From Acidobacteriaceae bacterium (lineage in GTDB: Bacteria; Acidobacteriota; Terriglobia; Terriglobales; Acidobacteriaceae): a DNA stretch of 64,000 nucleotides. Positions 415-59,567 of this stretch are shown in pieces (positions within the stretch are counted from its first letter, which is position 1; every line of letters begins with the position of its first letter). The position numbers and the translations under genes were made by a program. Below the pieces are notes generated by a model. The model did no database searches and was not told where the DNA came from. It worked only from the letters and a program-made list of their open reading frames with translations. Location: positions 1 through 64,000 of the forward strand of contig JASHNW010000045.1 of assembly GCA_030041435.1 (NCBI GenBank), in the 5' to 3' direction.

Positions 415-1071
415 TTACTCCGCCTTCCACACAAACGCGCCCGCCTGCGGCAGTCCAAAATGCGCCAGCACCCGGTCGACAAAGTGCTTCGCCATCTCCT
501 CGGAATCCACCGGCTTCGCGTAGCAGGCGGGCATCACCGGGAAGATCGTCGCACCCGCATCCGCTGCCAGCCCCATATTGCGAATGTGGATCTTGTTGAA
601 CGGCGTCTCGCGCAGACACAGAATCAGCGGCCGCCGCTCCTTCAGGCAAACGTCGGCAGCGCGCTCGATCAGGTTCCCCGCCATCCCGTTCGCTATGCCC
701 GCGAGCGTCCCCATGCTGCACGGCAGCACAATCATCCCGCTCGACGGATAGCTGCCGCTGGCGATGGCCGCGCCCACGTCGTTCTCCGTGTGCTGCACGA
801 TCTTCTGCGATGCGTGCCCCAGCAGCTTCTCCACCAGCCCGTTCCGGCCGGAGATGCCCAGCTCTTCCGCCAGCACCCGCAGCGAATTCTCCGAAGGCAC
901 CAGGTGGATTTTCTCCACGCGCTCATCGCCGTCCAGCGCCCGCAGCAGCGCCCGGCCGAACACCGCCCCGCTCGCACCTGTAACAGCAACGGTTACATTT
1001 CTGAACGCTGAACGCTGTTCACTGGACGCTGTCCTGTGCTCTGAGCTCTGTGCCCTGTGCTCTGTTTTCAT
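415..1071 (-). CDS. ubiX: UbiX-type flavin prenyltransferase
   Basis: UbiX makes prenylated FMN from FMN and dimethylallyl phosphate, the cofactor of UbiD-family decarboxylases. The Rossmann-like start VTVAVTGASGAVFGRALL, the PCSMGTLAGIANG segment and the RRPLILCLRETPF segment are characteristic. The protein is 218 residues against roughly 190-200 in the family. The excess is an N-terminal stretch of about 25 polar residues (EHRAQSSEHR...) encoded by a heptamer repeat array rather than by UbiX sequence. The ATG overlaps the purB stop as ATGA, and no other in-frame start lies between the array and the conserved core. This implies translational coupling with purB. No ubiD gene is in the window. 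Confidence 0.93.
   Translation of the reverse strand: MKTEHRAQSSEHRTASSEQRSAFRNVTVAVTGASGAVFGRALLRALDGDERVEKIHLVPSENSLRVLAEELGISGRNGLVEKLLGHASQKIVQHTENDVGAAIASGSYPSSGMIVLPCSMGTLAGIANGMAGNLIERAADVCLKERRPLILCLRETPFNKIHIRNMGLAADAGATIFPVMPACYAKPVDSEEMAKHFVDRVLAHFGLPQAGAFVWKAE
997..1067. repeat. Degenerate heptamer array between purB stop and the UbiX core
   Basis: On the plus strand the sequence runs with a 7-bp period, from CTGAACG units into TGTGCTC, TGAGCTC and TGTGCCC units. It begins immediately after the purB stop codon and encodes codons 2 to about 25 of ubiX in the other direction. It is not a CRISPR: units are contiguous and there are no spacers. Confidence 0.75.
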
Positions 1072-2387
1072 GGCCCGTACTCGTGCCCGGTATCGCTGCC
1101 CAGCACCCGGGCAAAAATCGCGTCCACGTTTCCCAGTTGCCGCTGCAGATCGAACGTCCGCTCCAGCTTCTCCGCGCTCAGCAGCGATGCAATCTCCGCA
1201 TCCGCTGCCACCAGGTCGCGAAACACCAGCTCGTTCTGCCACGCGTCCATCGCATGCTTCTGCACCAGCCGATACGCGTCCTCGCGCAGCATCCCCGCTT
1301 CCGCCAGATCGAGCAGCAGTTGCCCGCTGAAGATGAGCCCGCCTGTACTTTCCAGATTCCTCTTCATCCGTGCGGGATACACCGCCAGCTTCTCGATCAA
1401 ATCCGCCGTCTTCGCCAGCAGATAATCCGCCAAAATCGTCGAGTCCGGCAGAATCACCCGCTCCACCGAAGAATGCGAGATGTCGCGCTCGTGCCACAGC
1501 GCCACGTCTTCGAACGCTGCCTGCGCATTCGCGCGCACCACCCGCGCCAGCCCGCAAATCTGCTCCGCCGTGATCGGGTTCCGCTTGTGCGGCATCGCAG
1601 AAGAACCCTTCTGTTTCTCGGAAAAATACTCCTCCGCCTCGCGCACCTCGGTACGCTGCAGATGGCGAACCTCGGTGGCAATCTTGTCCAGCGTAGCCGT
1701 CAGCACCGCCAGCGTTGCGATGTAATACGCATGACGATCCCGCTGGATCACCTGGGTCGCAACCGGAGCGGCCGCCAGGCCAAGCTTCGCGCAGATGCGC
1801 TCTTCCTGCTCCGGCCCAATGTGCCCGAACGCACCCACCGCGCCCGAAAGCTTCCCCACCCGCATCTGCTCGGCAGCCGCGTCGAAGCGCTCCTGATTGC
1901 GCCGCATCTCCGCGTACCAGTTCAGAAGCTTCAGCCCAAACGTTGTCGGCTCCGCATGCATCCCGTGGGTTCGTCCCACCGTCGGCGTGTTTTTGAACTC
2001 GAGAGCTCGCTTCTTCAGTACCACCATCAGCCGCTCGATGTCTTCGCGCAGAATCGCCGAGGCCGCCTTCAATTGCAGAGCCTGGGCCGTATCCACCACA
2101 TCGTTCGAAGTGAGCCCATAGTGCAGCCATCGCGACTCCGGTCCGATCTTCTCCGCCACAGCCGTGGTGAACGCGATCACGTCGTGCTTCACCTCGGCTT
2201 CCACCTGCCTGATGCGCTCAGTGTCGAAGTCCCCGCGCTCGCGGATGGCCCGCGCGGCTTCCGGAGGAACAATGCCGTCCTCAGCCAGCACCTCGCTGGA
2301 CACAATCTCGACCTCAAGCCAGGCGCGATACTTCGCTTCATCGCTCCAGATGCGGCCCATGGCGGCCCTGGTATAACGCGGAATCAA
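1068..2387 (-). CDS. purB: Adenylosuccinate lyase
   Basis: PurB cleaves SAICAR to AICAR plus fumarate, and adenylosuccinate to AMP plus fumarate, in purine synthesis. The fumarase/aspartase superfamily signature SSAMPHKRNP is present about two thirds of the way along, and the N-terminus MIPRYTRAAMGRIWSDEAKY is typical of PurB. The length of 439 residues is normal. The start is TTG, supported by a GGAGGA Shine-Dalgarno 8 bases upstream. ubiX follows with an ATGA overlap. purH lies 8 kb away on the same strand, so the purine genes are dispersed. Confidence 0.97.
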   Translation of the reverse strand: MIPRYTRAAMGRIWSDEAKYRAWLEVEIVSSEVLAEDGIVPPEAARAIRERGDFDTERIRQVEAEVKHDVIAFTTAVAEKIGPESRWLHYGLTSNDVVDTAQALQLKAASAILREDIERLMVVLKKRALEFKNTPTVGRTHGMHAEPTTFGLKLLNWYAEMRRNQERFDAAAEQMRVGKLSGAVGAFGHIGPEQEERICAKLGLAAAPVATQVIQRDRHAYYIATLAVLTATLDKIATEVRHLQRTEVREAEEYFSEKQKGSSAMPHKRNPITAEQICGLARVVRANAQAAFEDVALWHERDISHSSVERVILPDSTILADYLLAKTADLIEKLAVYPARMKRNLESTGGLIFSGQLLLDLAEAGMLREDAYRLVQKHAMDAWQNELVFRDLVAADAEIASLLSAEKLERTFDLQRQLGNVDAIFARVLGSDTGHEYGP

Positions 2388-2564
2388 TGCGGAAATCCTC
2401 CGGGAGAACTCCTCATTCTATCGTCATCGCGCCCTGCTGCCCGGCGCCCACGCGAAACGCGGCAACCCCGCGATCCGGATCGCCGCGCGTGCGCATCTCC
2501 TCCAACGCGTATAAGCTTCAGGAGCAGCCGGAAAAAATCCCTCCCCCGGCCATGAAGGAGTTTT

Positions 2565-2798
2565 ATGGCAGACGTGGTGACAATTGCCAGCTTCAACGAA
2601 CCGCTCGAGGCCCAAATGGCGAAACTGCGCCTGGAGTCCGCGGGCATCACGGTCTTCCTCTCCGGAGAGAACGCCCGCATTATGGAACCCGGCCTCGGAC
2701 CTTTGCAGATTCAGGTCAGCACCGAAGACGAAGCCGACGCCCGCGCCATTCTCGCCGACCCCGGCGCGCCCTCTGAAGAGCAGCCTCAAATGTCGTAG
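2565..2798 (+). CDS. DUF2007-type small signal-transducing-like protein
   Basis: A 77-residue protein starting MADVVTIASFNEPLEAQMAK, with the family pattern of an early FNEPLEAQMAKLRLESAGI segment and a later LQIQV..EDEADARAIL segment. DUF2007 proteins adopt a ferredoxin-like, GlnB-reminiscent fold and have no settled function. A strong GAAGGAG ribosome site lies 4-5 bases before the ATG. The stop codon lies inside the palindromic operator of the marR gene that follows 19 bp later, so the two may share control. Confidence 0.85.
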   Translation: MADVVTIASFNEPLEAQMAKLRLESAGITVFLSGENARIMEPGLGPLQIQVSTEDEADARAILADPGAPSEEQPQMS

Positions 2799-13913: not shown

Positions 13914-14231
13914 AGTGTTGGTTTGTCAACCGCACTTTCTTCCTGTGCACTGCAAGGCAGGATTATTTCTATTGTTGGCTGCATAGTTAACACGTTCGCG
14001 ATCTGCAAAGCAACAGATTTTTTTCGCAACGTGGTAACCACGATAGAAACCAAAGCGACTTGCCTGTCAGCTCGAGGGATTACTGTTGAGACAGCATCGC
14101 GCAATTTTGCGCAGGGTCAACGCACCGGCACGCGGCCATCACACGGCATTTTCTGGAAAGCACCAGGAAAAACAGCCAAGTGACTGAAGTAATCTTTCTC
14201 CCCGCTCCCTCGCGCCGATCCGCTTGCCTTT
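13914..14231. other. Intergenic region upstream of the XRE gene
   Basis: 318 bp with lower GC than the neighbours. It holds a 13-bp palindrome CGTGGTAACCACG (about 14030-14042), a possible operator for the XRE protein, and a weak ATCTG/CAGAT stem followed by seven Ts near 14001-14024. No coding sequence is apparent. Confidence 0.45.
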
Positions 14232-15017
14232 TCACTTTTGATAAGGCCGCAAATGATCCTCAAGAAAGCGGCTTGACCGCTGCTCCGCGTCCTCGGCATC
14301 GGCAGGTTTGTATCCGCCGGTATTGTTGGGATTCTCAAAGGCATGCCCGGCGTCGGGATAGATCTTGACATTGGCACTTTTCCCATAGGACTCCATCGCC
14401 GTCTGGAAGGCGTGCACGTCGTCCGGCGTGATGCCGCGATCCAGCCCTCCGAAATTCCCCAGCACCATGGCGTGAATCGCCTGCAGGGCCGCCGGATCGG
14501 TCGGCAAGGCCCCATAGTTGATCACCACCGCCTTCAGGTTCGGATCGGCGACCGCCAGCTGCGCCGCGAACCCTCCCCCCATACACCAGCCAATCGCTCC
14601 GATGCGGCCTGCATCCACATCCCGCCGCCGTGCCAGCCAGGCTGCAGCCGACGTCAGATCGCGCACCCCGCGGTCCTGCGGCAGCCCGCGCATCAGCTCA
14701 TGCGCCATCTCCGCGTCGGTCGCCACCTTTCCTCGATACAGATCCACTGCCAGCGTCACGTATCCCTGCTGAGCGAAATGTTGTGCCTGCTGCTTGATCC
14801 AGTCGTTCAGCCCCCACCATTCGTGAATCACGATCAGCGCCGGATGCTTCGCGCTTGCCTGCGGCAGGTTGCCCTGCGGCAGATAGAGAAGCCCTCCGGC
14901 GGTTTCGTTGCCGCTGGGGAAGGAGACTGGCTGCGCGTTTTGCGCCCGCAGCGTCGCGCCGGGAAGAACCAGAGAGAGCAGAACGCTAAGAAGAGGCACT
15001 GCAAATCGGATTCCCAT
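14232..15017 (-). CDS. Secreted dienelactone hydrolase family protein
   Basis: 261 residues with a clear signal peptide (MGIRFAVPLLSVLLSLVLPG...LRAQ), so it acts in the periplasm or outside, unlike the cytoplasmic homologue at 5021-5698. The nucleophile elbow is GAIGWCMGGGFAA (Cys) and the histidine is in YPDAGHAFENP. The start is supported by AGGAG 5 bases upstream. A conserved VIHEWWGLNDWIK segment is typical of the family. The substrate is unknown. Confidence 0.92.
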   Translation of the reverse strand: MGIRFAVPLLSVLLSLVLPGATLRAQNAQPVSFPSGNETAGGLLYLPQGNLPQASAKHPALIVIHEWWGLNDWIKQQAQHFAQQGYVTLAVDLYRGKVATDAEMAHELMRGLPQDRGVRDLTSAAAWLARRRDVDAGRIGAIGWCMGGGFAAQLAVADPNLKAVVINYGALPTDPAALQAIHAMVLGNFGGLDRGITPDDVHAFQTAMESYGKSANVKIYPDAGHAFENPNNTGGYKPADAEDAEQRSSRFLEDHLRPYQK

Positions 15018-15263: not shown

Positions 15264-16523
15264 TTACTGCGGTGCGCCCACTTCGGTCGTTCCCGGGGCT
15301 GGCGTCTCCAGCGGCTGTTTGGCCGCAAAATAACTGCTGTCCCAAAGATTGCGATAGAAGACGCCGGTTAGCTCCGCCGCCTTGGGTCCAAACGTAGGCC
15401 GTCCGCCTTCGAGGAAGAACACCGCGACGATGCGCCCGTATTGCGTATCCGCGTACGAAGCAAACCATCCGAACCGCGTTCCGTCGTCGGAGCAGGTGCC
15501 GGTCTTGCCCAGCACCGGAAACTCATTGAAGTTCGTGCGCAGCGACCGCGCCGTCCCGTACCGCACCGCGGCCTGCATGCCGTCCTCAATCTCCGGCAAA
15601 ATCGGCCCGATATCCAGCGTCCGCTTGATGCGCGGCTGGAAGTCCAATACCTGTTCCGGCGTGGTGGGATGCTGCAGATAGTAAAGCGTGCCCCCATTCG
15701 CGATGGCCGCCACCAGGGCGCCCAGTTGCAGCGGCGTCATTGAGATTCCCTCGCCGAACGAGCACATGCGCCCCACGCCGCCCTCGCTGTCCGGAATCGG
15801 CTGATCCGGATAAAGCCCCGGCTGCTCACCCGGAATGTCGTATCCGGCCAGTTCGCCCAGGCCGAATTCCATCTCGTAGTGGTGCAGCCGGTCAAAACCC
15901 AGCCGCCGCCCCACCGTCTCGAAATAAAGATTGTTGGAGTGAGCCAGCGCCTCGGTCAGGTTCAGGTGATAATTCCCGCCCAGGTTCACCGGCGTATCTT
16001 TCGTGATGATTCCTTCTTCAAGCGCGGCCAGCGCCACCGAGATCTTGATGGTCGAGCAAGGCTCCGCGCCGGTGGAGAGCGCCAACTTCTGATTCACCAT
16101 GGCCAGAATGCGGCCGTTGGACGGATCGATGGCTACCACCGTCCCGTTCATATCGCCCAGCGCATTGACGGCCGCCTGGCGGACCACCGGATCCTCGCCC
16201 GCCGTGATGTCGCCGGCCGTCAGGTCGGTCGTCGCGAAGGAGCTCGCCGTGAAGCGCTCGTAATACCGGTGATGAAAGCTCGCCTGCCGCAGGTGCGCCG
16301 CATGGGCGCCCCGCACCGTGGTCAGCGTGGCTGGCCGCAGATGCGATCGGGTGACGCGCTCGCTGTGCTGCAGAGACACAATATGCCTGCGGGCGGTTGC
16401 CGACTCATGGACGCGCGCGCGTGTGTGATGAATGGTCCGACGCGTCGTCGTTGCGGACGCGCCGAACAGCAGCTGCGGCGCTGCGAGTGCGGCAACGAAG
16501 AGAGCAAAAATCAAGCGCTTCAT
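15264..16523 (-). CDS. Penicillin-binding transpeptidase-domain protein
   Basis: 419 residues with a signal peptide or anchor (MKRLIFALFVAALAAPQLLFG), then a His/Arg/Thr-rich linker of about 90 residues and a transpeptidase domain. The active-site motifs are CSTIK (SxxK), SNN (SxN) and GKTGT (KTG). GDMNGTVVAIDPSNGRILAMVN marks the start of the catalytic fold. There is no N-terminal dimerisation or glycosyltransferase domain, so it is shorter than FtsI or PBP2. It could be a D,D-transpeptidase or a divergent beta-lactam-interacting enzyme. It lies downstream of ftsZ on the same strand, with 307 bp between. Confidence 0.9.
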   Translation of the reverse strand: MKRLIFALFVAALAAPQLLFGASATTTRRTIHHTRARVHESATARRHIVSLQHSERVTRSHLRPATLTTVRGAHAAHLRQASFHHRYYERFTASSFATTDLTAGDITAGEDPVVRQAAVNALGDMNGTVVAIDPSNGRILAMVNQKLALSTGAEPCSTIKISVALAALEEGIITKDTPVNLGGNYHLNLTEALAHSNNLYFETVGRRLGFDRLHHYEMEFGLGELAGYDIPGEQPGLYPDQPIPDSEGGVGRMCSFGEGISMTPLQLGALVAAIANGGTLYYLQHPTTPEQVLDFQPRIKRTLDIGPILPEIEDGMQAAVRYGTARSLRTNFNEFPVLGKTGTCSDDGTRFGWFASYADTQYGRIVAVFFLEGGRPTFGPKAAELTGVFYRNLWDSSYFAAKQPLETPAPGTTEVGAPQ

Positions 16524-16830: not shown

Positions 16831-18222
16831 TTACAGCCCTCCCTTGCGCATAAAGGCCGGTATATCCAGGTCCTCGCCCGGCTCCGGCTCGAACATCGAA
16901 GGCGCGGCCGCGAACATCTCCGGCTGCACCGGTTGCTCCGCAACTGCTACGGCCGAAGTCTCCGCCTCGCTCTCCGTCTCATCGGCTTCAACCGCAAAAT
17001 ACGTCAGCTCGCCCCGCAGCGGCTCCCCTTCCCGCATCGGTTGCGGAGTAGCGAACGCCGAGATCACCTCCCTCGCCGTCACCGGAACAAACACCGGGGG
17101 GGGTGCAACGTTGCGTGCCGCGGGAGCCGCAACCGCGGCTTCCTCCCCATCCTCCTCGCTGGCGAAACGCGGCGCGGCCGGGCGGCCCTCGATGCGCGGC
17201 TCCGGCCGCAGCGCCGCGCTCAGCATATGCTCGCGCCGCTCCGCCGAACCCTGCGTGAACCCGGTCGCAATCACCGTGATCTTCACTTCGTCGCCCATCT
17301 CCTCGTTCAGCACCGCCCCGAAGATGATGTTTGCGTCCTCGTGCGCCGAGCTCTGGATCAGCGTCGAAGCCTCGTTCACTTCGCTCAGCTTCAGCGTGCT
17401 CGACCCGGTGATGTTGATCAGGATGCCGTGCGCTCCGTCGATCGCGCCCGCTTCCAGCAGCGGCGACGCCATCGCCGCCTGGGCCGCTTCGATTGCCCGG
17501 TTCGCCCCGCTGCGCACCGCCGTTCCCATCACGGCGTAGCCCATTCCCGCCATCGTCGTCTTCACATCGGCGAAGTCGCGGTTGATGATGCCCGGAATGG
17601 TGATGATGTCGGAGATTCCCTGCACCCCCTGGCGCAGCACATCGTCGGCAATGCGGAACGACTCGAAGAAGCCGGCGTCTCTGGCCACCGCCAGCAGCTT
17701 TTCGTTGGGGATCACGATCATCGTGTCCACGCTGTCCAGCAGCTCCTGCATGCCGCGCTCCGCCTGCATCATGCGGCGCTTGCCTTCGAACGCAAATGGC
17801 CGCGTCACCACGGCCACTGTCAGCGCGCCCATTTCGCTGGCCAGCGATGCGATCACCGGCGCCGCGCCTGTGCCCGTGCCTCCGCCCAGGCCCGCCGTCA
17901 CAAACACCATGTCCGCGCCTTCCAGGGCTTCGATGATCTTTTCCGAGTCCTCCAGCGCTGCCCGCCGCCCGATGTCCGGATTCGCGCCCGCTCCCAGCCC
18001 GCTGGTCAGCTTCACCCCCAGCTGCAGCTTGATCGCCGCCTGGGAAAGCTGCAGCGCCTGCCGGTCGGTGTTCGCGGCAATGAACTCCACGCCCTCCATG
18101 TTGGCGGCGATCATGCGATTCACCGCGTTGCCGCCCCCGCCGCCCACGCCTATCACCTTGATCTTTGCGCCGCGCGGAAGTTCATCCTGATACTGAATGC
18201 GGATTTCTTCAGCCTTTTTCAT
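16831..18222 (-). CDS. ftsZ: Cell division GTPase FtsZ
   Basis: The tubulin-like protein that forms the Z-ring. The tubulin signature GGGTGTG is at residues 113-119, preceded by [17 protein letters not shown]. The variable linker (about 320-440) is rich in Ala, Glu and Pro. The C-terminal tail [13 protein letters not shown] is the conserved FtsA-binding peptide. 463 residues is longish because of the linker. The ATG is placed at [14 protein letters not shown], with GGAG-type signals upstream. It is the last gene of ftsQ-ftsA-ftsZ, 101 bp after ftsA. Confidence 0.98.
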
Positions 18223-18269: not shown

Positions 18270-18325
18270 TGTGCTCCCTGGCCCGTGCTTTCTGCTCCGT
18301 GCCCTGAGCCCTGTGCCCTGCCCTC
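18270..18325. repeat. Degenerate heptamer array between ftsA stop and ftsZ
   Basis: On the plus strand the units are TGTGCTC, CGTGCTT, CGTGCCC, TGAGCCC and TGTGCCC, in phase at 7 bp, running up to the ftsA stop codon at 18324-18326. The units match those at 997-1067 and 27410-27556. Confidence 0.7.
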
Positions 18326-19541: not shown

Positions 19542-20704
19542 CGCGCACCTCGCTCAGAAGTCCGGCCCGCACGCTTCGCTGCGCTCTTCGCGGAACTCTT
19601 CGCCGTTTCCCTGCGCGACGCCCTCGTTTTCGCTGTATTGGTCTTCCCCGTCTTCGTCCTCTGCACGTTCGAATGCACTGCAGACGGTGCCGCGGAAGAG
19701 ACCCCGGCGCCCGCATTCGCCGATGCCGCCACATCCTGCGCCATCTTCAGAACCACTTCGTGGTCGTACCGCAGATCGACCGCAGCCAGCTTCGGATACT
19801 GCTGCCGCCACTGCGCAATGTGCGCCGCGTAGTTGTTCCATCGCGCCAGAAAATCCTGCTGCCCAAACTGCAGCTCGATATCCGACCCGTTCGCAGGCAC
19901 CGTCGCCCGCACATCTTCCGGATCCGACAGGTTCACCTCGCTCAGCCGCGCGGAGATGTGCTGCCCGCCCGAGTCCAGATCGCTGACGAACCGCTGATAG
20001 ATCTGCATCCGCGCGCCGCGCATCGACAGCGGATCCGCCGGGTTGATGCCGGTCACCACCGGAAACGAATAATGCTTCGCCGCCATCTCCTGTGGCGTCA
20101 TGTCCAAAATCACTCCGGCGGCATCCGCCAGTTCGATCCTGCCGCGCACCTCGACAAATGCGATCGGGGTCCGCTCCGTCACTGCCACGCGCAGCTGATT
20201 GGGCATCAACCGCATCACCGTGGCGCGCTCCACCCACGGAAACCGCTCCAGCTCCGCGCGCCGCTCTCCCAGCGGCACAAAAAACAGGTTGCGCCCGATG
20301 TCCGATCCAAAAACCGACAACAGATCGTAGCGGCTCAGCTGGCTGTTGCCCATCGTCTGGATGGAAGCCGCCGAGTCGATGCGAAATCGAGAATCGTGGT
20401 CGAGGAAGCTGCGTGTTGCCAGCACAAGCGTCGTGCCGGTGCCGAGGAAAACCACAATGCCGGTGGCCAGCACCATCTTTCCCCAGCGCGTCTTCGCCCA
20501 GAGCGGCAGCAGGCCTCGCCGCACCGGAACGCGCCTCCGCGCACGCAGAAAGGGTTCGCCTGCGTCGGCTTCCCCGCCGGAAGCCGTTCGCGCGGATCGC
20601 GGCGTGCGCTCGACGGTCTCCTGGGTCTCCGTCGGCCGGTAAAATCCCGGCCGCGGCTCTTCCAGAAGAGTCGCGCCTCCGCTATGTGCGCTGGTTTTCG
20701 CCAC
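19538..20704 (-). CDS. ftsQ: Cell division protein FtsQ
   Basis: A bitopic inner-membrane divisome protein, 388 residues. A cytoplasmic region of about 75 residues precedes one membrane segment (MVLATGIVVFLGTGTTLVLA). The POTRA domain follows (SRYDLLSVFGSDIGRNLFFVPLGERRAELERFPWV in outline), then the FtsQ domain with LRVAVTERTPIAFVEV and LAAVDLRYDHEVVLK. The periplasmic end carries an unusual Lys/Arg/Ala/Ser-rich tail of about 60 residues. The start is GTG. Usually murC, murB or ddl precedes ftsQ; here the upstream neighbour is a divergent TonB receptor. Confidence 0.95.
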   Translation of the reverse strand: MAKTSAHSGGATLLEEPRPGFYRPTETQETVERTPRSARTASGGEADAGEPFLRARRRVPVRRGLLPLWAKTRWGKMVLATGIVVFLGTGTTLVLATRSFLDHDSRFRIDSAASIQTMGNSQLSRYDLLSVFGSDIGRNLFFVPLGERRAELERFPWVERATVMRLMPNQLRVAVTERTPIAFVEVRGRIELADAAGVILDMTPQEMAAKHYSFPVVTGINPADPLSMRGARMQIYQRFVSDLDSGGQHISARLSEVNLSDPEDVRATVPANGSDIELQFGQQDFLARWNNYAAHIAQWRQQYPKLAAVDLRYDHEVVLKMAQDVAASANAGAGVSSAAPSAVHSNVQRTKTGKTNTAKTRASRRETAKSSAKSAAKRAGRTSERGAR

Positions 20705-27200: not shown

Positions 27201-27373
27201 CCGAGGGCGGCAACGCCGGCGGCCAGATCGTCGTTACCGGCGCCCCCGAAGCCATTGCCTGCAACGAACTCTCCCACACCGGCCAGTGGCTCGCCCGTGT
27301 CCTCGCCGGCCACGCGCCCGCCCACCACGAGGCCCCCGTCGAAAGCCTCACGGAAAGCGAAGTCCTCTCGTGA
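24296..27373 (+). CDS. uvrA: Excinuclease ABC subunit A
   Basis: The damage-recognition ATPase of nucleotide excision repair, 1025 residues. The first half has [11 protein letters not shown] near residue 40, a zinc module FECKTC...CPRC near 305-335 and [12 protein letters not shown] near 535. The second half has [11 protein letters not shown] near 690, a second zinc module CDVCEGDG...CEECNG near 790-815, and [12 protein letters not shown] near 880. An Ala/Pro/Lys-rich insertion lies around residues 155-200 ([18 protein letters not shown]), making it longer than the usual 940 or so. The start is TTG. The stop overlaps the GTG of the next gene as GTGA. Confidence 0.96.
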
Positions 27374-28815
27374 ATTTCCCACCGTCCCCGCGCTCCTCCC
27401 GCTGCCATCTGCCGGCTGCCGGCGCGCTGCGCTCCGGGCGCTGCGCCCTGGGCGTCGTTGTGCTCTGTGCGCTGCGCTCTGTGTTCCGCGCCCTGGGCTC
27501 GGTCTTTGTGCTCTGCGCTCTGAGCTCTGTGCTCTGCCCGACCTCTGTGCTCTGCCTCGCCCAAACCGCCCCTCTGCCCCCCGGCAGCTCCGCTCCCGAC
27601 GCGCCACCGCAGTCCGCCCCCGATCCTCTCGCCCTGGCCGAGTCCGCCATCGCTGCGCAGAACTACTCTGCCGCCGCCGCCCAGCTCGACGTTTACCTCT
27701 CCGCCCATCCCGGCGACGCGCGAGCCCTGTTCGACCGCGGCTACGCTGCCGACGCCCTGGGCCAATTTGACATCGCCGAATCCTGGTACCGCAAAGCCAT
27801 CGCCGCCAACCCGCAGCAGTTTGAGTCTCATCTCGCTCTCGGCCTCATCCTCGCCGCCAAAGGCGACCCCGGCGACGATCAGGCCGCCCGCGAACAGCTC
27901 CAGACCGCGACGCAGCTGGAGCCCAATCCACCCAATCCCGGGGCCAAAGCCCAGGCTGATCGCGCCCTCGCCCGCCTGCTCAGCGCATCCGATCCCGCGG
28001 CCGCCCGTGACGCCCTCGTCGCCGCCATCCGGCTCACTCAGGAAACCCCCGCCGACACTCTGCTCACCGCCGAAATCGCCGAAAACGCAGGCGACAACGA
28101 CGTCGCCGAGCAGGCGTACCGTCGCGCCCTCCAGTCCGATCCCACTTCCCCCCAGGCCACCGCCGGCCTCGCGCATCTGCTCATTGCCGAAAAGCGCTAC
28201 GCCGACGCCCAGCCGCTGATTCAGGCAGCCCTCCAGCGCAATCCTGACGACCCCGCCCTCAACGCCCAACTCGCCGCCGTCCTCAACGCGCAGGGCAAGC
28301 AGGCTGATGCTCTGGCCGTCCTCGAAAAGCTCCATCAGCTTCGGCCCGCCAGCCGCTCCGTCACCGCCATGCTGGCCGACGCCGAATTCCAGGCCGGCAA
28401 TCTGGACCAGGCCGACGCTCTCTACCAGCAGCTCCTCGCTAACGCTCCTTCCGACTCAGCCCTCCTCGACGCGCATGGCCGGATCCTCGTCCGCCAGCAG
28501 CACTACGCGGATGCTGTCGCCGCCTTCCGCAAGGCCGTCGCCGCCCAGCCTGACGACGCGGACGCCTGGTCCGGCATTGCCTTTGCCGACTCCGAGCTCC
28601 ACCAGTACTCCGACGAATTGCAGGCTCTTTCCATGCGATCAAAATTTGCCCCGGAGAATCCATCCAGCCTTTTCCTGTGGGCAACGGCGTACGATAATCT
28701 CCATCAAACAAAGGCAGCGGCGGACTACTACCATCGCTTCCTCGCCGCCGCCCAGGGAAAATTTCCCGACCAGGAGTGGCAGGCGAAGCACCGGCTTGTC
28801 GCCCTTGAAAAATGA
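27370..28815 (+). CDS. Secreted tetratricopeptide-repeat protein with a repeat-encoded signal peptide
   Basis: 481 residues. A GTG start overlapping the uvrA stop (GTGA) gives a hydrophobic leader ([15 protein letters not shown], then [15 protein letters not shown]) ending near LCLAQTAP. This leader is encoded by a heptamer repeat array. After a proline-rich linker there are roughly ten TPR units (for example [54 protein letters not shown]). It is probably a periplasmic scaffold. Coupling to uvrA seems positional rather than functional. The exact start is uncertain because the repeat blurs it. Confidence 0.85.
27410..27556 (+). repeat. Longest degenerate heptamer array, inside the TPR signal-peptide codons
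   Basis: About 20 units with a 7-bp period begin some 35 bp after the uvrA stop: TGCCGGC units, then GCGCTGC, TGTGCTC, TGTGCGC, TGCGCTC, GTGCTCT and GAGCTCT. Read in the TPR frame, they encode alternating Leu/Cys/Ala/Val and form the hydrophobic core of the leader. Confidence 0.75.
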
Positions 28816-30459: not shown

Positions 30460-30540
30460 CCGCTCCTCGCTCCGCATGCTCATCTGGCGGCCATCGCTGC
30501 CGCCTCCGGGCCATAAAATCTGCGCCGCGTTTCACGAACC

Positions 30541-30580
30541 GGCCGCCGGCTGCAGGCCACCGGCTACCAGCCGTACACTG
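30541..30580. repeat. Short, weak heptamer-like array
   Basis: GCCGGCT/CCGGCTA-type units with a period near 7 lie between the response regulator and the ABC ATPase genes. It is less regular than the other arrays and is listed because of its position. Confidence 0.35.
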
Positions 30581-33341: not shown

Positions 33342-33373
33342 CTCTGAGCCCTCCACCCCGAGCCCTGTGCCCT
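33342..33373. repeat. Heptamer array abutting a stop codon
   Basis: Units of the CTGAGCC/CGAGCCC/TGTGCCC kind lie between the two TonB_C paralogues and touch the stop codon of the upstream one at 33372-33374. Confidence 0.5.
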
Positions 33374-34244: not shown

Positions 34245-34277
34245 TCCTGCCGTCCGCTGCCTGCTGCCGGCTGCCGG
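34245..34277. repeat. Heptamer array abutting the GH16 stop codon
   Basis: Units CTGCCGT, CTGCTGC, CGGCTGC and CGGCTAT with a 7-bp period fill the gap between the TonB_C start at 34235 and the GH16 stop at 34278-34280. Confidence 0.5.
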
Positions 34278-35153
34278 CTATTCCGCGTACACCCGCACCC
34301 AGTCCACCAGCATCTCCTGGGGAAACTCCGTCGACGCATCCGGCGGTCCCGGCCAGCCTCCACCCACCGCCAGATTCAGCAGCACAAAATACTTTCCGTC
34401 GTCGAACGGCCACACCGCCCCCTGCGGCAAATCCGCCGGCGTCCGTGTTTCATAAGGATGCCGCGGATCGTCCACGTAAAACTCCATCTTCTTCGGCGAC
34501 CACAGAATGCCGAACGTGTGAAACGCATCCGCAAACGCGGCATGATCCGGCAGCTGATACGGCGAGCCCAGAATCGTGCCCGTGAACCCCGTCCCATGGA
34601 TCGACCCGTAGATCGTATCCGGCCGCTTTCCGATGTTCTCCATGATGTCCACTTCGCCGCAGGCCTGCCACGGAGATGTCCCAATGTCGTCGCCCAGCAG
34701 CCAGAACGCCGGCCACATCCCCTGCCCGCGCGGCACTTTGATGCGCGCTTCGATCCGCCCGTACTGGAAGCTTCGCAGCCCCTCGCTCTTCAGCCGCGCC
34801 GACGTGTAGACGCTATGCCCCTCGCTGCGTGCTGCGATGTTGCGCGCCACGATGTGCAGATATCCGTCGCCGCCCACATACGCGTTGGGCTGCGCGGGAT
34901 CGCACGGTCCCTTCCTCGATCCCCACGCGCAATAGGTCTCCAGCTCCCGGTTGCCCCATCCGTTCGCGCCTGTGTCGTAGGTCCAGTTCGCCGGGTTCGG
35001 CTCACCCCTGGTTCCGTTGAACTCGTCGCTCCACACCAGCCTCTCGCCCGTTCCCGCTGCCTTCACCGGCTGCATCGCCGGCAAGGCCCGCCAGCCCGCC
35101 GCCGTTGCCATCGCTGCAAGGCATAGTATCCCCCACCAAAAAGCCAGCCTCAC
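34278..35153 (-). CDS. GH16 endo-beta-glucanase (laminarinase-like)
   Basis: 291 residues with an N-terminal hydrophobic leader. The catalytic motif is GEVDIMENIG (ExDxxE) near residue 165. LVWSDEFNGT at the start, FQYGRIEARIKVPRGQGMWPAF in outline, and the late LNLAVGGGWPG are characteristic of the laminarinase-like subgroup. It probably hydrolyses beta-1,3- or mixed-linked glucans in the periplasm or outside. The start is GTG. It may be cotranscribed with the TonB_C gene downstream. Confidence 0.94.
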   Translation of the reverse strand: MRLAFWWGILCLAAMATAAGWRALPAMQPVKAAGTGERLVWSDEFNGTRGEPNPANWTYDTGANGWGNRELETYCAWGSRKGPCDPAQPNAYVGGDGYLHIVARNIAARSEGHSVYTSARLKSEGLRSFQYGRIEARIKVPRGQGMWPAFWLLGDDIGTSPWQACGEVDIMENIGKRPDTIYGSIHGTGFTGTILGSPYQLPDHAAFADAFHTFGILWSPKKMEFYVDDPRHPYETRTPADLPQGAVWPFDDGKYFVLLNLAVGGGWPGPPDASTEFPQEMLVDWVRVYAE

Positions 35154-35491: not shown

Positions 35492-35511
35492 TAAATGCAC
35501 GCACAATCCCA

Positions 35512-35555
35512 CCGGCTCCCGGCTCCCGGCTCCCGGCTCCCAGCTACCAGCTCCC
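35512..35555. repeat. Heptamer array next to the inverted-repeat element
   Basis: Four nearly perfect CCGGCTC units followed by CCAGCTA and CCAGCTC, 7-bp period, 20 bp to the right of the MITE-like element and just upstream of the aminotransferase start. Confidence 0.75.
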
Positions 35556-35581
35556 CGCTTCGTTGTGGTAAACAGAAACCC

Positions 35582-36751
35582 ATGAGTGTTGCCTTCGACC
35601 GGCTCCGCCTCAGCGAGATTTCACCCGGCATGGTGCAGTCGGAAATCCGCGCCATGACCATGGAATGCGACCGTATCGGCGGCATCAATCTCGCCCAGGG
35701 TGTCTGCGATACCGGTGTTCCCTCTCCGGTAATGACCCGTGCCATCGATGCCATTAGCGAAGGCTATAACATCTACACCCGCCTCGATGGCATCGCGCCC
35801 CTGCGTCTCGCTGTCTCCGAAAAGCTCGCTCGCTACAACGGAATCGACGCCGACCCCGACTCGGAAATCCTCGTCACCTCCGGCGCCACCGCGGGCTTCT
35901 GCGCCGCCTGCATGGCGCTCTTCAATCCCGGCGACGAAGTCATCCTCTTCGAGCCCTTCTACGGCTACCACCTCAATACGCTGCGCGCCCTCCGCGTCAA
36001 CGCCGCCGTCGTTCCCATGGCCCCACCGCATTGGGCCATCGACTTCGACGCCCTCCGCGACGCCATCACCCCGCGCACCCGCGGCATTGTCATCAACTCG
36101 CCGTCGAATCCCTGCGGCAAAGTCTTCACCCGCGCCGAGCTCGAGGCCATTGCGGCCCTGGCCGGCGAACACGACCTCTTTGTCATCACCGATGAGATTT
36201 ACGAGTATTTCCTCTTCGACGGCGCCGAGCACATCAGCCCGGCCACTCTGCCCGGCATGGCGGAACGCACCGTCACCATCTCCGGCCTCTCCAAGACGTT
36301 CAGCATCACCGGCTGGCGCATCGGCTATCTCGCTGCGGACCGCCGCTGGCTGGGCGCCATCGCCTACTTCCACGACCTCGTCTACGTCTGCGCGCCCTCG
36401 CCGTTCCAGCACGCCTCAGCAGCCGGACTCATGCAGTTGCCCACCAGCTTCTACGAGGCCCTCGCCACCGAGTACCAGGCCAAACGCGACAGGCTCTGCA
36501 CCGCCCTCGCCGACGCCGGCATGACGCCGTCCATCCCGCCCGGCGCCTACTACGTCCTCGCCGACGCGTCCGCTATCCCCGGCACCAACGCGCGCGAAAG
36601 AGCCCGCACCCTCCTCCGCCAAACCGGAGTCGCCGCTGTCGCCGGGACCGCATTCTTTGCCGAGAACCGCGGAGACAACCTCCTCCGCTTCTGCTTCGCC
36701 AAGCGCGACGAAGACCTCGAGCGCGCCTGCCACGCGCTCCGCACCCGTTGA
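35582..36751 (+). CDS. PLP-dependent class I/II aminotransferase
   Basis: 389 residues. The pyridoxal lysine is in ISGLSKTFSITGWRIGY. INSPSNPCGKV, ITDEIYEYFLF and GAYYVLAD are standard fold-type I landmarks. The opening GGINLAQGVCDTGVP and the pattern overall recall the methionine/kynurenine aminotransferase (YbdL/KAT) subgroup. The ATG at MSVAFDRLRL starts the homologous part; the open frame upstream only translates the repeat array. The ribosome site is weak. The exact substrate is not assignable. Confidence 0.92.
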   Translation: MSVAFDRLRLSEISPGMVQSEIRAMTMECDRIGGINLAQGVCDTGVPSPVMTRAIDAISEGYNIYTRLDGIAPLRLAVSEKLARYNGIDADPDSEILVTSGATAGFCAACMALFNPGDEVILFEPFYGYHLNTLRALRVNAAVVPMAPPHWAIDFDALRDAITPRTRGIVINSPSNPCGKVFTRAELEAIAALAGEHDLFVITDEIYEYFLFDGAEHISPATLPGMAERTVTISGLSKTFSITGWRIGYLAADRRWLGAIAYFHDLVYVCAPSPFQHASAAGLMQLPTSFYEALATEYQAKRDRLCTALADAGMTPSIPPGAYYVLADASAIPGTNARERARTLLRQTGVAAVAGTAFFAENRGDNLLRFCFAKRDEDLERACHALRTR

Positions 36752-36797
36752 TCGCTGTACCCTGATCGCTGATCGCTGATCGCTGATCGCTGCCCCT
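36749..36797. repeat. Heptamer array filling the gap between two convergent stop codons
   Basis: The aminotransferase stop TGA is itself the first base triplet of a TGATCGC unit. After a CTGTACC variant the unit repeats four times in tandem up to the stop of the DedA-rhodanese gene at 36796-36798. Confidence 0.8.
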
Positions 36798-37746
36798 ACG
36801 CCGCCGTCGCCGTCTCGATATCGACGAGTGGATACCCCAGCCGCTTCCACTCCTCGAAACCGCCGCGCAGCGGCCGCACCCGGTAGATCCCCATCTTCCG
36901 CAGCGCCAGCGCCATCCGCGCCGCCGTCGCCTCACTGGGACAGGTGCAGAACAACACAATCTCTCTGTCGCGCGGAATGCGGTCGCTCTCCTGCACCAGC
37001 TTGTCCGGTGTCAAACTCAGTGCACCCGGCAGCGTCCGTGGATCGGGCAGGTAATCCAGCGGATGCCGCAGGTCCACGATGAACACCGGTTGCCCCTCGT
37101 CCAAAATCTCCTTCAGCTCCTGCGGCTCCACGCGCGCCATCCGCACCGACCGCAGAAACGCCCGCCTCTGCAGCATCCGGTATCCCACGAACCCCAGCAG
37201 CAGAAGGACAAAGATGGCCACAAAGAAGTGCGCCGTCCACGACAGTGCGTTCGGGTTCCGGTTCAGAATGTCTCCGAAAAAACGCCCCGCCAGCGTCACT
37301 GACGCTGCCCACAGCAGGATGCCGCCGGCGTCGAACAGCACGAACTTCCCGTAGTCCATCCCGATCTGTCCCGCAATCGGCGCCGCCACCGACCCCAGGC
37401 CCGGCACAAACTTCGCCACCAGCAGCGCCGTTGCGCCACGTTTCGTGAAATACAGCTCCGTCTTGCGCACGCACGCCGTGCTCTCGAAGCTGAGCCGGCA
37501 CACCAGCCGCACCACCGCCCCGCCGTACCGCTGCCCAAACATGTACCAGATTGAATCCGCAATCAGACTTGCAATCACTGCCGCCAGCAGCACCAGCGCC
37601 AGGTGCAGCTTGTGCGTCCCGGTCAGCGTCCCCGCCGTCAGCAGCAGGGGGGTGCTGGGTATCGGAATTCCCAGTTGCTCCGTCAGCACCCACACGAACA
37701 CGATCAGATAGGCGTACCGGACGAAGATATTGAGGGCTATCGGCAT
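36796..37746 (-). CDS. DedA-family membrane protein fused to a rhodanese domain
   Basis: 316 residues. Residues 1-200 form a DedA/SNARE-associated membrane domain (IPSTPLLLTAGTL, ADSIWYMFGQRYGG, LLVAKFVPGLGSVAAPIAGQIGM). After a last membrane helix (FFVAIFVLLLLGFVGY) comes a cytoplasmic rhodanese domain (ELKEILDEGQPVFIVDLRHPLDY), with the catalytic cysteine in VLFCTCPSEATA and GGFEEWKRLGYPL at the end. The ATG at MPIALN starts the DedA domain. The fusion suggests sulfur transfer or a redox-responsive partner for the flippase-like domain. Confidence 0.93.
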   Translation of the reverse strand: MPIALNIFVRYAYLIVFVWVLTEQLGIPIPSTPLLLTAGTLTGTHKLHLALVLLAAVIASLIADSIWYMFGQRYGGAVVRLVCRLSFESTACVRKTELYFTKRGATALLVAKFVPGLGSVAAPIAGQIGMDYGKFVLFDAGGILLWAASVTLAGRFFGDILNRNPNALSWTAHFFVAIFVLLLLGFVGYRMLQRRAFLRSVRMARVEPQELKEILDEGQPVFIVDLRHPLDYLPDPRTLPGALSLTPDKLVQESDRIPRDREIVLFCTCPSEATAARMALALRKMGIYRVRPLRGGFEEWKRLGYPLVDIETATAA

Positions 37747-43322: not shown

Positions 43323-44870
43323 TCAGTCCCTCCCCTGTGGAGGAGTGGCCTGCGGAGGACTAGCCTGCGGAGGAGTGGTCTGCGGAGGCGTGCTCGGCGC
43401 TGGCCTGGCCTGCGCAGCCCGGCCCTGCCCGGCCCCAGCCTGCCCAGGCCCAGCTTGCCCAGCCCCAGGCTGCCCAGCCGCGCCCTGCGGCGCCGGCCTG
43501 GCAGCCGAACCAGGAGTCGCGCTCGTCCCGGTCGGCTTCGGTGAGCCTTCCTTCTTTTGAGCCTCGCCGGCTCCAGTTTTTCCCTTCTCTGCGGCACTGC
43601 CCTCGGATTTGCTGGCGCTCCCACCCTGGATTTTGCCCGCAGTTCCGCCCGTGCTCTTACTCGCGCCGGCTCCCGCTGCCTTGCTCCCGCTCGGATTAGC
43701 CGCAGGCGCCGCATTCTCCGGCTCGACTTCCGGGCTCGTGATCCTCTGCCCCGGCACCAGATCCGACGCCTGCGGTACTTCCGAAGACGAATAGTGATCC
43801 GGATGAATCGGCGGAGGCGGCTTCGGCGGCAGCGGTGGCGGCGCGTTCGGATTCTCGGCAGCCGGCCCCGCCCCGTTCGGCCCCGCCCCGTTTTGTCCCG
43901 GCCCGTTCTGTCCCGTCCCTCCCGTCGGCGGTGCGTTGGGATCGGCGCGCGACGGCAGCCGTTCCGCCAGAATGTCCGCCGCCCTCTGCTGCGCGTCCGA
44001 CAGATCCTGCTGCATCGCCGCCGGCAACTGGGACCCCGCGCTGATGATAATCAGCACCTCTTCCAGCTTCGACAGATTCGCCGCCGGCTTCACCAGCACG
44101 TTCACCAGCGTGCCGTCCGGTTCGGGCACCACGCGGTCCACCGTCCCCACCGCCAGCCCGCGCGGATAAATCGAGTCCCCGCCGCTGGTCACCACTGGCT
44201 CGCCTGCCTTGATTCGCTCGTCCGGCGACACGTTGACAATCTCCGGCTGGCCCCAGGTATTGCCGCGCAACACCCCCTGGATACGCGTCTGCTCCAGCAC
44301 CACGCCCGCCCCGCTCGTCGCGTCGGAGATTTCCAGCACCTGGCTGGTGTGATCGAAGACGTCCCGCGTCTTGCCCACGATGCCGTCCGGCGTAATCACC
44401 GGCATATCCGGCGCAATCCCGGCGCTCGACCCCTTGTCGATCAGCAGGACGTGCGATTGGTCCGTGCCCGCGGTCCCGATCACCTGCGCCGCAACGGTCT
44501 TGTAAATGTACTTTTCCCTGAACCCGAGCAGCGCCTGCAGCCTCTCGCCCTGGCGCGCATCCTCGGCAAGGCTCGCTTCTTCCAGGCGCAGCTGGTCTAG
44601 TTGCTCCTGGAGATTCCTGTTCTCCTGCCGGACGTGAATCAGATCCAGATAATTCGCCCACACCCCGCGAATGCCCAGCCCTGTCGCGTGCAGCAGCCGC
44701 TCCGGCGGGCTCACAATCCCTACCACCCAGGCGCGAATCAGCAGCACCCCGCCTTTGTCGCCCGGCGCCTGCCCCGGACGGCGCACCTGCACCGCAAGCC
44801 CGATCACCTGCGCCAGGAGCAGGGTAATCAGCACCAGGGCGTTGCGGTAACGGCTGAAAAACGATTCCAT
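43323..44870 (-). CDS. mreC: Rod-shape determining protein MreC with long low-complexity tail
   Basis: 515 residues against about 280-350 in most bacteria. Residues 1-290 are standard MreC: a membrane anchor near 10-30, a coiled coil (LIHVRQENRNLQEQLDQLRLEEA in outline) and the two beta-barrel domains (VIGTAGTDQSHVLLIDKGS, GVLRGNTWGQPEIVNV). Residues from about 300 on are a disordered periplasmic tail rich in Pro, Gly, Ala, Gln and Ser, ending in repeats of the TPPQ.. kind. The DNA for the tail is internally repetitive. Confidence 0.95.
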   Translation of the reverse strand: MESFFSRYRNALVLITLLLAQVIGLAVQVRRPGQAPGDKGGVLLIRAWVVGIVSPPERLLHATGLGIRGVWANYLDLIHVRQENRNLQEQLDQLRLEEASLAEDARQGERLQALLGFREKYIYKTVAAQVIGTAGTDQSHVLLIDKGSSAGIAPDMPVITPDGIVGKTRDVFDHTSQVLEISDATSGAGVVLEQTRIQGVLRGNTWGQPEIVNVSPDERIKAGEPVVTSGGDSIYPRGLAVGTVDRVVPEPDGTLVNVLVKPAANLSKLEEVLIIISAGSQLPAAMQQDLSDAQQRAADILAERLPSRADPNAPPTGGTGQNGPGQNGAGPNGAGPAAENPNAPPPLPPKPPPPIHPDHYSSSEVPQASDLVPGQRITSPEVEPENAAPAANPSGSKAAGAGASKSTGGTAGKIQGGSASKSEGSAAEKGKTGAGEAQKKEGSPKPTGTSATPGSAARPAPQGAAGQPGAGQAGPGQAGAGQGRAAQARPAPSTPPQTTPPQASPPQATPPQGRD

Positions 44871-58070: not shown

Positions 58071-58121
58071 CCCCGTGCTCGCTCTGCAACGGAACGTCTG
58101 CCTTCGTGCGTGGAGTGCGCG

Positions 58122-59447
58122 ATGAAGTTTCGCGGTCTCATCGCTGCGGTCGTCATCCTTGCCGGCCTCGGAGGTGTCCTCTACTGGTCGCAGCACCATA
58201 AACCCAGCACCGCTCCCGCCGGGCCGGTCGTTCCCGCCATCGTCAAGTTCGACTCCTCCGCCGTCACCAGCCTCACCCTGCGGCCCAAAGGCGCCCAGGC
58301 CATCACGCTCACTCCCTCGGGAGCCTCCCTCTGGACGATCACCGCGCCCATCAATTTCCGCGCCGATTCTGACAGCGTCAACCAGATGGTCGCCACCCTC
58401 GCCGATCTCATCCCCCAGCGCACCGTCGAAGACAAAGCCTCCGATCTCGCGAAGTACGGCCTCAGCGATCCGTCGCTCGCCGTCGACGTCGCCGAAAAGA
58501 ACAACCAGTCCGCCCATCTCATCCTTGGCGATCGCACCCCCACCGGCGACGCCTTCTACGCCATGGTTCCCGGCGATCCGCATGTCTACACGGTCTCGGC
58601 CACCGTCGACAACACGCTCAGCAAGAGCCTGAACGATCTGCGCAACCGTCACCTCGTCCCCGTCCAGTCTCTCGATGTCCAGAACGTTGAGCTCCTTCGC
58701 AACGGCCAGGACGTCTCCATCGCCCGCGTCCCCTCCGGCTGGCAAATCCAGAAGCCGCAGCCGTACCGCACCGACAATTACGAGGTCGACGGCCTGGTGC
58801 AGCAAATCGTCTCCGCCACGTGGGACGAATCGACCAACACACCCCAGTCCGCCGCCGCCTTCGCCCACGGCACGCCCGTCGCCACCGTAAAGGTCTCCAC
58901 CGGCTCCGGCGCCAGCGCGCCCACTGACACCCTCGAAGTCCGCAAATCGAAGGACGACTACTTCGCCAAATCCAGCGCCGTGGAAGGCACCTGGAAGATC
59001 GACTCGTCGCTGGCCACGGCGCTGGATCGCAGCGTCGACGATTTCCGCAACAAACAGCTCCTCAACTTCGGCTATGCCGACCCGCTCAACATCGAGTACC
59101 AGTCCGGCGCGACCAGTCTGAACCTCGTCCGTTCCAACAAAGACTGGTATTCGAACGGCAAAAAGATGGACGCGGACAGTGTCGACTCCCTCATCAGCGC
59201 AATCCGTGGCCTGGCCGCATCGAAGTTTGTCGATTCCGGATTCACCAAACCCGATATCACCCTGACCGTCGTCTCCGTGGAGGGCCGCGCCATCGAGAAG
59301 ATCTCCTTCCAGAAGACCCCGGACGGCGCCATCGCCAAACGCAGTGACGGCCCCGGCCTCTACGTCCTCGACTCCGTCACCATGAACAACCTCTACACCG
59401 CAGCCGCAGGCATCAAACCAGCCGCAGCGCCCGCCAAAAAGAAATAG
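58122..59447 (+). CDS. DUF4340 periplasmic protein of the Gld-like operon
   Basis: 441 residues. One N-terminal membrane anchor (LIAAVVILAGLGGVLYW) is followed by repeated DUF4340 beta-rich modules (LWTITAPINFRADSDSVNQMVATLADL; WQIQKPQPYRTDNYEVDGLVQQIV). It is the usual fourth member of GldA-F-G-like loci outside gliding bacteria. Function is unknown; the geometry suggests a large periplasmic sensor or substrate handler. Confidence 0.92.
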   Translation: MKFRGLIAAVVILAGLGGVLYWSQHHKPSTAPAGPVVPAIVKFDSSAVTSLTLRPKGAQAITLTPSGASLWTITAPINFRADSDSVNQMVATLADLIPQRTVEDKASDLAKYGLSDPSLAVDVAEKNNQSAHLILGDRTPTGDAFYAMVPGDPHVYTVSATVDNTLSKSLNDLRNRHLVPVQSLDVQNVELLRNGQDVSIARVPSGWQIQKPQPYRTDNYEVDGLVQQIVSATWDESTNTPQSAAAFAHGTPVATVKVSTGSGASAPTDTLEVRKSKDDYFAKSSAVEGTWKIDSSLATALDRSVDDFRNKQLLNFGYADPLNIEYQSGATSLNLVRSNKDWYSNGKKMDADSVDSLISAIRGLAASKFVDSGFTKPDITLTVVSVEGRAIEKISFQKTPDGAIAKRSDGPGLYVLDSVTMNNLYTAAAGIKPAAAPAKKK

Positions 59448-59497
59448 GCAGTAGCCGCCAAACCGACCACCGGCTCTCGCCCGCAGGCTATCTGACT

Positions 59498-59567
59498 GCC
59501 CGCTCCATCCCTGACCGCTCCATCCCTGACCGCTCCATCTCTGCCCGCTCCATCCCTCAGCGCTGCC
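59498..59567. repeat. 15-bp tandem repeat before pyrE
   Basis: Four copies of a 15-bp unit (GACCGCTCCATCCCT with minor changes) in tandem between the DUF4340 stop and the pyrE start, followed by CAGCGCTG. Unlike the other arrays its period is 15, but the composition and position (intergenic, after a stop codon) are similar. Confidence 0.75.

Follow-up and report, generated by a model that had tools for sequence, protein, structure and literature searches.

Short tandem heptamers lying between genes are known from cyanobacteria as the short tandemly repeated repetitive (STRR) sequences, which the arrays described here resemble by description only. The present arrays are degenerate heptanucleotide tandem repeats of an Acidobacteriaceae bacterium (assembly GCA_030041435.1; source genome G000, 5.77 Mb in 134 contigs), in which we analyzed the first 64,000 nucleotides of contig JASHNW010000045.1 (G000:C112:1-64000), here called the window. 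An initial annotation of the window, made from the letters alone, had named at least nine sites with a 7-bp period and placed them between genes, many of them touching or closely following a stop codon.

The closest described repeats are the GGGNATC heptamers of Xanthomonas and the GGGGA(C/T)T heptamers of Nostoc, which Rehm et al. 2015 (PMC4692102) treat as quadruplex forming and for which the nearer open reading frame (ORF) lies on the 5' side of the G-rich strand regardless of ORF direction. As that paper describes them, these repeats share with the arrays of the five acidobacterial genomes compared below their degeneracy, genome-wide distribution, polarity, and over-representation in noncoding DNA (here 176 noncoding arrays and 29 overlapping coding sequence, although about 83 to 86% of the sampled DNA was called coding). 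Some overlap stop codons, some form inverted pairs, and they are rare between divergent ORFs, the last being found here in genome G101 only. Unlike the repeats described there, the acidobacterial arrays comprise many units per genome, and 116 of the 176 lack GGG on the G strand. They differ further in that G101 has two-arm gaps whose units match, units change where the position is kept, two arrays lie in the ends of coding sequences, nonamers of one family share the polarity, and a small set of loci reverses it. The kind of repeat is already known, and the acidobacterial arrays are a variant of it with many, mostly GGG-free units; the polarity, which the initial annotation missed, had been published for Xanthomonas and Nostoc.

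MacGregor 2015 (PMC4679880) describes TAACTGA direct repeats of Beggiatoaceae, Cyanobacteria, and Bacteroidetes near start codons in one orientation and, in one case cited there, reversed after a stop. TAACTGA is a rotation of CTGATAA, which is arrayed in the Acidobacteriota genomes G343 and G395; the 26 source-genome arrays sampled, with 20 consensus unit classes, did not include TAACTGA. Whereas the repeat described in that paper has a single unit, many units occur here, and flush arrays are more frequent at stops than at starts. The (GATAGRA)n-type heptamer-derived satellites of Chloroflexus aurantiacus (PMC6749651) are also dispersed tandem heptamers but, in the passages that describe them, follow no edge or strand rule. 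The word stem Acidobacteri is absent from the main texts of PMC4692102 and PMC4679880, and among the CC-licensed papers of PubMed Central (PMC), a search that did not cover other journals, we found no acidobacterial equivalent, in agreement with the initial annotation. Gene-edge heptamers have so far been reported case by case, with G-quadruplexes or a single regulatory motif as the explanation; the edge rule reported here spans many unlike units in five array-rich genomes and fails for most other tandem repeats.

Periodicity of the arrays

The 7-bp arrays reported at the nine sites were real. Lag-7 identity at all nine exceeded the window background (0.58 to 0.92; empirical P values of 0.0002 to 0.0056 against random window stretches of the same length, which are descriptive only, the sites having been chosen by eye), and Tandem Repeats Finder (TRF) gave a period-7 row at seven of them, with none at 30541 and 33342. 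An excess of 7-bp periodicity was present in a sample of 705,130 bases, or 12% of the source genome, made up of the window and 40 further stretches: 25 lag-7 segments were found, against none in one Markov resample. In the same bases, lags 4 to 6, 8 to 11, and 13 gave 0 to 3 segments, and lags 12, 14, 15, and 21 gave 7, 15, 14, and 11, respectively. Across the whole source genome, the pattern (CTGN4)x4-CTG had 202 matches and its reversed control had 3. CTG was nevertheless rejected as the key element: CTGN4 is strongly enriched, yet the anchors AGC, GCT, and CCC outscored CTG in the 705-kb sample, so that CTG is one unit family among several. The heptamers run head to tail with no spacers, and the CRISPR layout of longer repeats with unique spacers was not found among the 7-bp arrays, as the initial annotation had said.

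Strand polarity at gene edges

Genes were called with our own codon-usage script, with start positions uncertain, and thresholds were fixed after the data had been inspected. Genomes G006, G101, G105, and G089 were picked for high pattern counts and do not form a random sample. The polarity set comprised 176 noncoding arrays, 26 from the source genome, 33 from G006 (same genus), 10 from G105, 94 from G101, and 13 from G089, after exclusion of the 29 coding-overlapping arrays and of 13 edge, N, or tie cases; the array at 998 to 1067 of the window, discussed below, stayed counted as intergenic (1 of the 26 source-genome arrays). For the GGGNATC-type repeats a preference for four units has been described; four to five units were present in 105 of the 176 arrays, a figure to be read with a detection window that itself favors about four or more. 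Each array was oriented by its G-richer strand (G>C) and was called flush when its end lay at most 12 bp from a predicted gene edge.

The 5' end of the G-richer strand was nearer the gene edge in 147 arrays and the 3' end in 29 (n = 176; sign test, P = 3e-20). The 5' end was flush in 98 of the 176 and the other end in 4; for the source genome alone, the corresponding counts were 19 versus 7 for the nearer edge and 14 versus 2 for flush ends (n = 26). Of the 157 arrays that had 60 bp or more of free room, 82 were flush at the 5' end and none at the other, with 13.3 expected per side. Purine-based orientation of the full set of 176 gave flush ends 89 versus 13. Polarity was seen in convergent gaps (32 versus 3), in divergent gaps (21 versus 5), and for single arrays per gap (74 versus 15); with unit classes counted once per genome, 53 leaned the same way, 17 the opposite way, and 4 were tied. 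The association with stop codons was real but extended to both kinds of edge: where the 5' end of the G strand faced a stop it was flush in 68 of 94 arrays, and where it faced a start it was flush in 30 of 82, so that a position after stop codons does not define the arrays. Within the gene, the periodicity of stop-flush arrays was near background, slightly raised (0.37 to 0.50 at -8 to -4) in G101 and G089, and it climbed from the final two stop-codon bases onward. Arrays more than 25 bp from any edge showed no polarity (32 versus 22), and a polarity acting at a distance was rejected. A general skew of the gaps was also rejected as its source, being weak in array-free gaps and strongest at G101 starts (GC skew, 0.136).

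Control arrays with periods of 5, 6, 8, 10 to 13, and 16 to 20 showed no polarity (12 versus 16; flush, 5 versus 2; n = 28). Three arrays of period 15 were oriented 3 versus 0, none of them flush. Nonamers gave 12 versus 7, with flush ends 9 versus 1 (n = 19), and all nine flush cases belonged to the TTGGGAGTC family of G101, which is dispersed at gene edges with the polarity of the heptamers (for example, L184 9188-9365 and L188 4912-4981). Chance or base composition might be suspected from the weakness of two of the nine window sites, and the reversed polarity of a small set of other loci (see below) could be accidental. For the arrays as such, however, chance is refuted by the segment, pattern, and polarity counts given above, and we assign it virtually no probability.

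The period, degeneracy, and polarity of the arrays resemble those given for the repeats in PMC4692102, and at least four GGG runs were present on the purine-rich strand of 41 of the 176 arrays, as would be expected if they were G-quadruplex regulatory elements of the kind proposed for the GGGNATC arrays of Xanthomonas and for Nostoc. GGG-free units were, however, polar in the same direction, with flush ends 37 versus 0 where the longest G run of the unit was 2 (n = 62) and 27 versus 3 where it was 0 or 1 (n = 54). Since the polarity also holds for units whose G runs are no longer than 2, G-quadruplexes of the GGG type are not the cause of the rule in these genomes, and the quadruplex explanation appears highly improbable.

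Exceptions and distribution

The polarity was reversed at 21 purB loci of other acidobacteria (L031 to L051), where 11 arrays were found, 2 of them coding; the 9 counted gave 2 versus 7 for the nearer edge and 1 versus 4 for flush ends. A universal G-strand rule was accordingly rejected for the phylum. Two of the four contrary flush arrays came from locus L034 of Acidobacteriaceae SbA5, in which three AGCTNCT arrays (15805-15976 and 19949-19979) have, by eye, one outward orientation with the C-richer strand running outward, suggesting that it may be the unit, and not the G content, that array orientation follows. Because the rule holds for GGG-free units and reverses in this small set of loci, it is separable from G content and can be tested; the question raised is whether mRNA constraints, the unit, or the way in which arrays are made determines orientation.

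The (CTGN4)x4-CTG pattern was present in 31 of 41 near relatives and in 167 of 396 genomes of the phylum. The reversed control was also high in many other families, which points to heptamer arrays of other units there; genome G050 of the phylum sample, with 0 CTGN4 matches and 190 and 210 reversed-control matches, probably has heptamers of its own kind. Five of the 14 genomes reached through locus comparisons had matches (control in parentheses): Silvibacterium bohemicum, 20 (7); a Chlorobiota metagenome-assembled genome (MAG), 128 (252); a Desulfovibrio MAG, 7 (27); and one Calditrichaeota and one Krumholzibacteriota MAG with single matches. The Chlorobiota MAG (G432, genome of L062) carries abundant CTGACCA and CTGACAA heptamer arrays outside the Acidobacteriota. 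Elsewhere, L149 contains two near-identical short periodic stretches with GTTCGAGGAGCGAGGAGCGAC, at 14206-14233 and 17995-18024, about 3.8 kb apart.

Paired arms

G101, which belongs to another family, contained 29 inverted pairs of arrays within the same gap, with the purine-rich arm on the left in 26. The two arms shared their unit to 6 of 7 positions in 79% of the pairs, compared with 24% of 317 pairs from different gaps within one stretch and 19% of 4022 additional pairs. An intrinsic terminator would consist of a GC-rich hairpin and a U tract after it; in convergent two-arm gaps such as L188 8733-8874 and L190 5845-6062, the C arm enters the stop codon of the next gene (by eye). When elements with the G arm left, the C arm right, and a core below 200 nt (median core, 57 nt) were folded, 22 of 27 were more stable than at least three-quarters of their arm-swapped versions and 3 of 27 were far less stable. 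A mobile element with a conserved core was rejected, as the 17 G101 cores of the first sample were unrelated except for one neighboring pair and one 12-bp match. No inverted pairs were found among the 26 source-genome arrays, and G006 had three, none unit matched. Of the divergent gaps of G101, 3 of 35 contained an array, as did 61 of 157 gaps of other kinds; the corresponding figures were 9/87 and 14/296 in the source genome and 4/67 and 23/278 in G006.

Among seven orthologous gaps of G101 and G089 (40 to 450 bp), five had an array in at least one genome and four in both. The unit differed by eye in all four, for example, GAATTGA versus GAATGAA with both arms changed, and one of the seven gaps scored as a hairpin in both genomes.

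The arrays could be functional RNA elements, stem-loops in the transcribed gap after a stop and before the next start, in which selection acts on the structure and leaves the unit free to vary; they might act on ribosome release, readthrough, or mRNA stability. The matched arms, the scarcity of arrays in divergent gaps of G101, the stability of 22 of the 27 elements, and the joint change of both arms at one orthologous gap are all consistent with this proposal, and the G101 two-arm gaps would form mRNA structure directly past the stop, as in the ribosome termination structure of PMC7518266. Single-arm arrays would not form such a structure, and tandem heptamers are not mentioned in the opening of that abstract. 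The proposal also fits poorly with the source genome, which has no inverted pairs and no depletion of arrays in divergent gaps, with the lack of matched units in the three G006 pairs, with the polarity of single arrays, with the three elements that fold far worse than their swaps, and with the single gap that forms a hairpin in both genomes. We regard selected RNA structure as possible but somewhat unlikely.

Turnover of units

Five window sites were compared with G006, and four of them (998, 27395, 30539, and 36749) had no array there; the G006 gap measured -1 bp at the first and 4 bp at the last. At the fifth site, 35512, G006 carries an array with related, CCGGCTA-like units upstream of the matching aminotransferase gene. 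The position matching 36749 in G001 carries CAG heptamers with a different unit, which lie in part within the last codons of the neighboring gene (by eye). Local seeding of the 36749 array from the G006 junction TGAATCGCTA was considered and set aside, the junction being indistinguishable from the resident unit CTGATCG. The source genome and G006 shared 5 of 20 exact unit classes, and 80% of the source-genome classes had a 6-of-7 partner in G006 (null mean, 43%; null maximum, 70%), with flanks matching a G006 array locus for only 4 of the 26 source-genome arrays. In G101, 66 of the 94 arrays were built from three units.

A fixed 7-nt spacing is what binding sites of an RNA- or DNA-binding protein of the S1, cold-shock, or CsrA type might show, and protein binding has been suggested for the TAACTGA repeats, which in Beggiatoaceae lie near start codons (PMC4679880). 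It is difficult to reconcile with the change of unit in 4 of 4 orthologous gaps that keep arrays in both genomes (by eye) or with the many unlike units within one genome, and we consider it improbable. At starts of the source genome and G006, a TACCCTGT-N4-ATG motif recurs (for example, L130 8980, L131 11587, and L135 11198), perhaps a promoter or start-site motif. CCCTGT lay within 45 bp upstream of 20 of 1061 genes, in 11 of them at -10 to -12, and some of these genes had no array; with only 20 such genes, a leaderless promoter was rejected as the seed of start-side arrays.

Origin and maintenance of the arrays

The observations to be accounted for are the period of 7, the anchoring at edges, and the strand polarity in the five array-rich genomes, together with arrays that are gained or lost between congeners, units that change while the position is kept, and, in one lineage, inverted arms with matching units. 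We tentatively favor, at somewhat less than an even chance, heptamer arrays that are born by slippage, spread, and are tolerated at gene edges mostly in one orientation, and we claim no dedicated function for them. Arrays would arise and vary by tandem duplication or a slippage-type process, and units would spread between loci by copying, giving a small set of units common within a genome. Arrays would persist just outside stop and start codons or in dispensable terminal codons, where selection would leave mainly one orientation because the repeat lies in or beside the mRNA, with the outcome of C-rich sequence before a start and G-rich sequence after a stop. Where a G arm and a C arm are both present in one gap, they may pair as a hairpin. 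This explanation is supported by the four of five window sites that are array free in G006, by the in-frame arrays in the ends of UbiX and a TPR protein (see below), by the few dispersed units, and by the 147-versus-29 polarity and its absence at other periods. In addition, the rate of indels in Acidobacterium capsulatum is high in relation to that of substitutions, and its indels are enriched in noncoding DNA (PMC8717266, in passages that do not mention heptamers).

Several points weigh against slippage and tolerance. The favored side is in six-fold excess (82 seen and 13.3 expected, n = 157), which goes beyond what an orientation filter alone would give; nearly all units are 7 nt long, a constancy not expected from plain slippage; and the matched arms (79% versus 24%) and the kept positions with changed units look maintained. 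The reversal at the purB loci also counts against it, as do two analytical choices, the 12-bp flush cutoff being our own and the G-richer-strand orientation having been adopted after the purine orientation. The favored-side excess and the matched arms lend some probability to both selected RNA structure and a dedicated array maker.

In the latter case, a dedicated generator or mobile process would lay arrays outward from gene edges in a fixed orientation with a template-set unit, by end addition of the telomerase or end-joining type or by transposition-like copying. At starts and stops alike, the outward strand is the same one, the step is a nearly constant 7 nt with one 9-nt family of the same polarity, the units are few per genome and common within the genus, the two arms of a gap are alike in unit, and the L034 arrays keep their orientation despite a C-richer outward strand (by eye), all of which would be expected of such a process. 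Reverse transcriptase was tried as the array maker and rejected: PF00078, the one enzyme family searched for, was not found in the array-rich genomes G008 (99% complete), G010, G005, and G039. The 17 unrelated cores, apart from the neighboring pair and the 12-bp match, are also not predicted by end joining, and a generator of this kind seems unlikely. A broader and still less probable conjecture is that an as yet undescribed trans-acting system, shared by several phyla, extends tails of heptamers (rarely nonamers) outward from gene edges with a unit-specific orientation and a template-set unit. The repeats of Xanthomonas, Nostoc, Beggiatoa, and Acidobacteriota would then form one class in which the unit is free and the step length and orientation are fixed.

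Arrays in the window

Contact with a stop codon, as initially reported, held for six of the nine sites (395, 997, 18270, 33342, 34245, and 36749) and not for 27410, which lies 36 bp past the uvrA stop, 30541, 81 bp past a stop, or 35512, which is near no stop. Pfam upheld the gene names given, namely, a flavoprotein of the UbiX type, adenylosuccinate lyase, FtsA, UvrA, TonB_C, GH16, and aminotransferase; the best matches of the adenylosuccinate lyase, in a comparison that may have passed over records of the source genome itself, included the isolate S. bohemicum (78%) and a MAG of the Acidobacteriales (80%, best segment), which points to a host of the Acidobacteriaceae kind. The intergenic placement failed for the two longest arrays, both of which lie in reading frames.

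The first of these, a CAGAGCA/CAGGGCA/CAGCGTT array at 998 to 1067 (minus strand), comes after the purB stop. The reading frame of UbiX stays open across it, and the only in-frame starts between position 1100 and the conserved core are an ATG with its first base at 1071, which overlaps the purB stop, and a GTG at 963 within the core; starts further upstream would fall in purB. The array therefore reads as UbiX residues 2 to 25, which rules out an insertion between genes. In G006, purB and ubiX overlap without an array. The longest array complex, with units CTGCCGG, CTGTGCT, and CTGCGCT (plus-strand reading), occupies 27395 to 27558 (minus strand). It lies in the 5'-terminal part of the TPR reading frame, which is open from a GTG at 27370 and overlaps the uvrA stop. 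The complex encodes a hydrophobic, signal-peptide-like stretch, although translation could also start at in-frame GTG codons within the array. The G006 counterpart has a signal-peptide-like sequence without an array, and we infer that the array may serve as a signal peptide. The window shows heptamer arrays turning into protein ends, one of them in a signal-peptide region.

Units of the remaining arrays are given in the plus-strand reading where so marked (+). An array of 2.7 CTGATCG/CTGAACG (+) units at 395 to 413, identified by TRF and in the sequence, lies beside the ubiX stop at 415; its G and C are equal, and no strand was assigned. The others were assigned to the minus strand. CTGTGCC/CTGAGCC (+) units at 18286 to 18323 stand immediately past the ftsA stop (18324), and a weak array at 33342 to 33371 adjoins the stop of the TonB_C gene (33372). 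At 34246 to 34280, CTGCCGG (+) units include the TAG stop of the GH16 gene (34278 to 34280) within the periodic stretch. A TGATCGC array at 36749 to 36799 fills the 44-bp gap between two convergent genes and touches both stops. CCGGCTC (+) units at 35505 to 35563 lie upstream of the aminotransferase start (35582), and a weak CCGGCTN array at 30539 to 30568 is away from gene edges, in a gap that is 36 bp shorter in G006.

The window also holds tandem repeats of longer period. A 15-bp array of CTGACCGCTCCATCC at 59496 to 59564 lies between two plus-strand genes, about 20 bp upstream of the start at 59584, and its G strand runs away from that start, as in the heptamers. Repeats of 15 and 30 bp at 43334 to 43488 and 43858 to 43926 fall within the predicted gene at 43323 to 44870, where they perhaps encode a repetitive protein segment.

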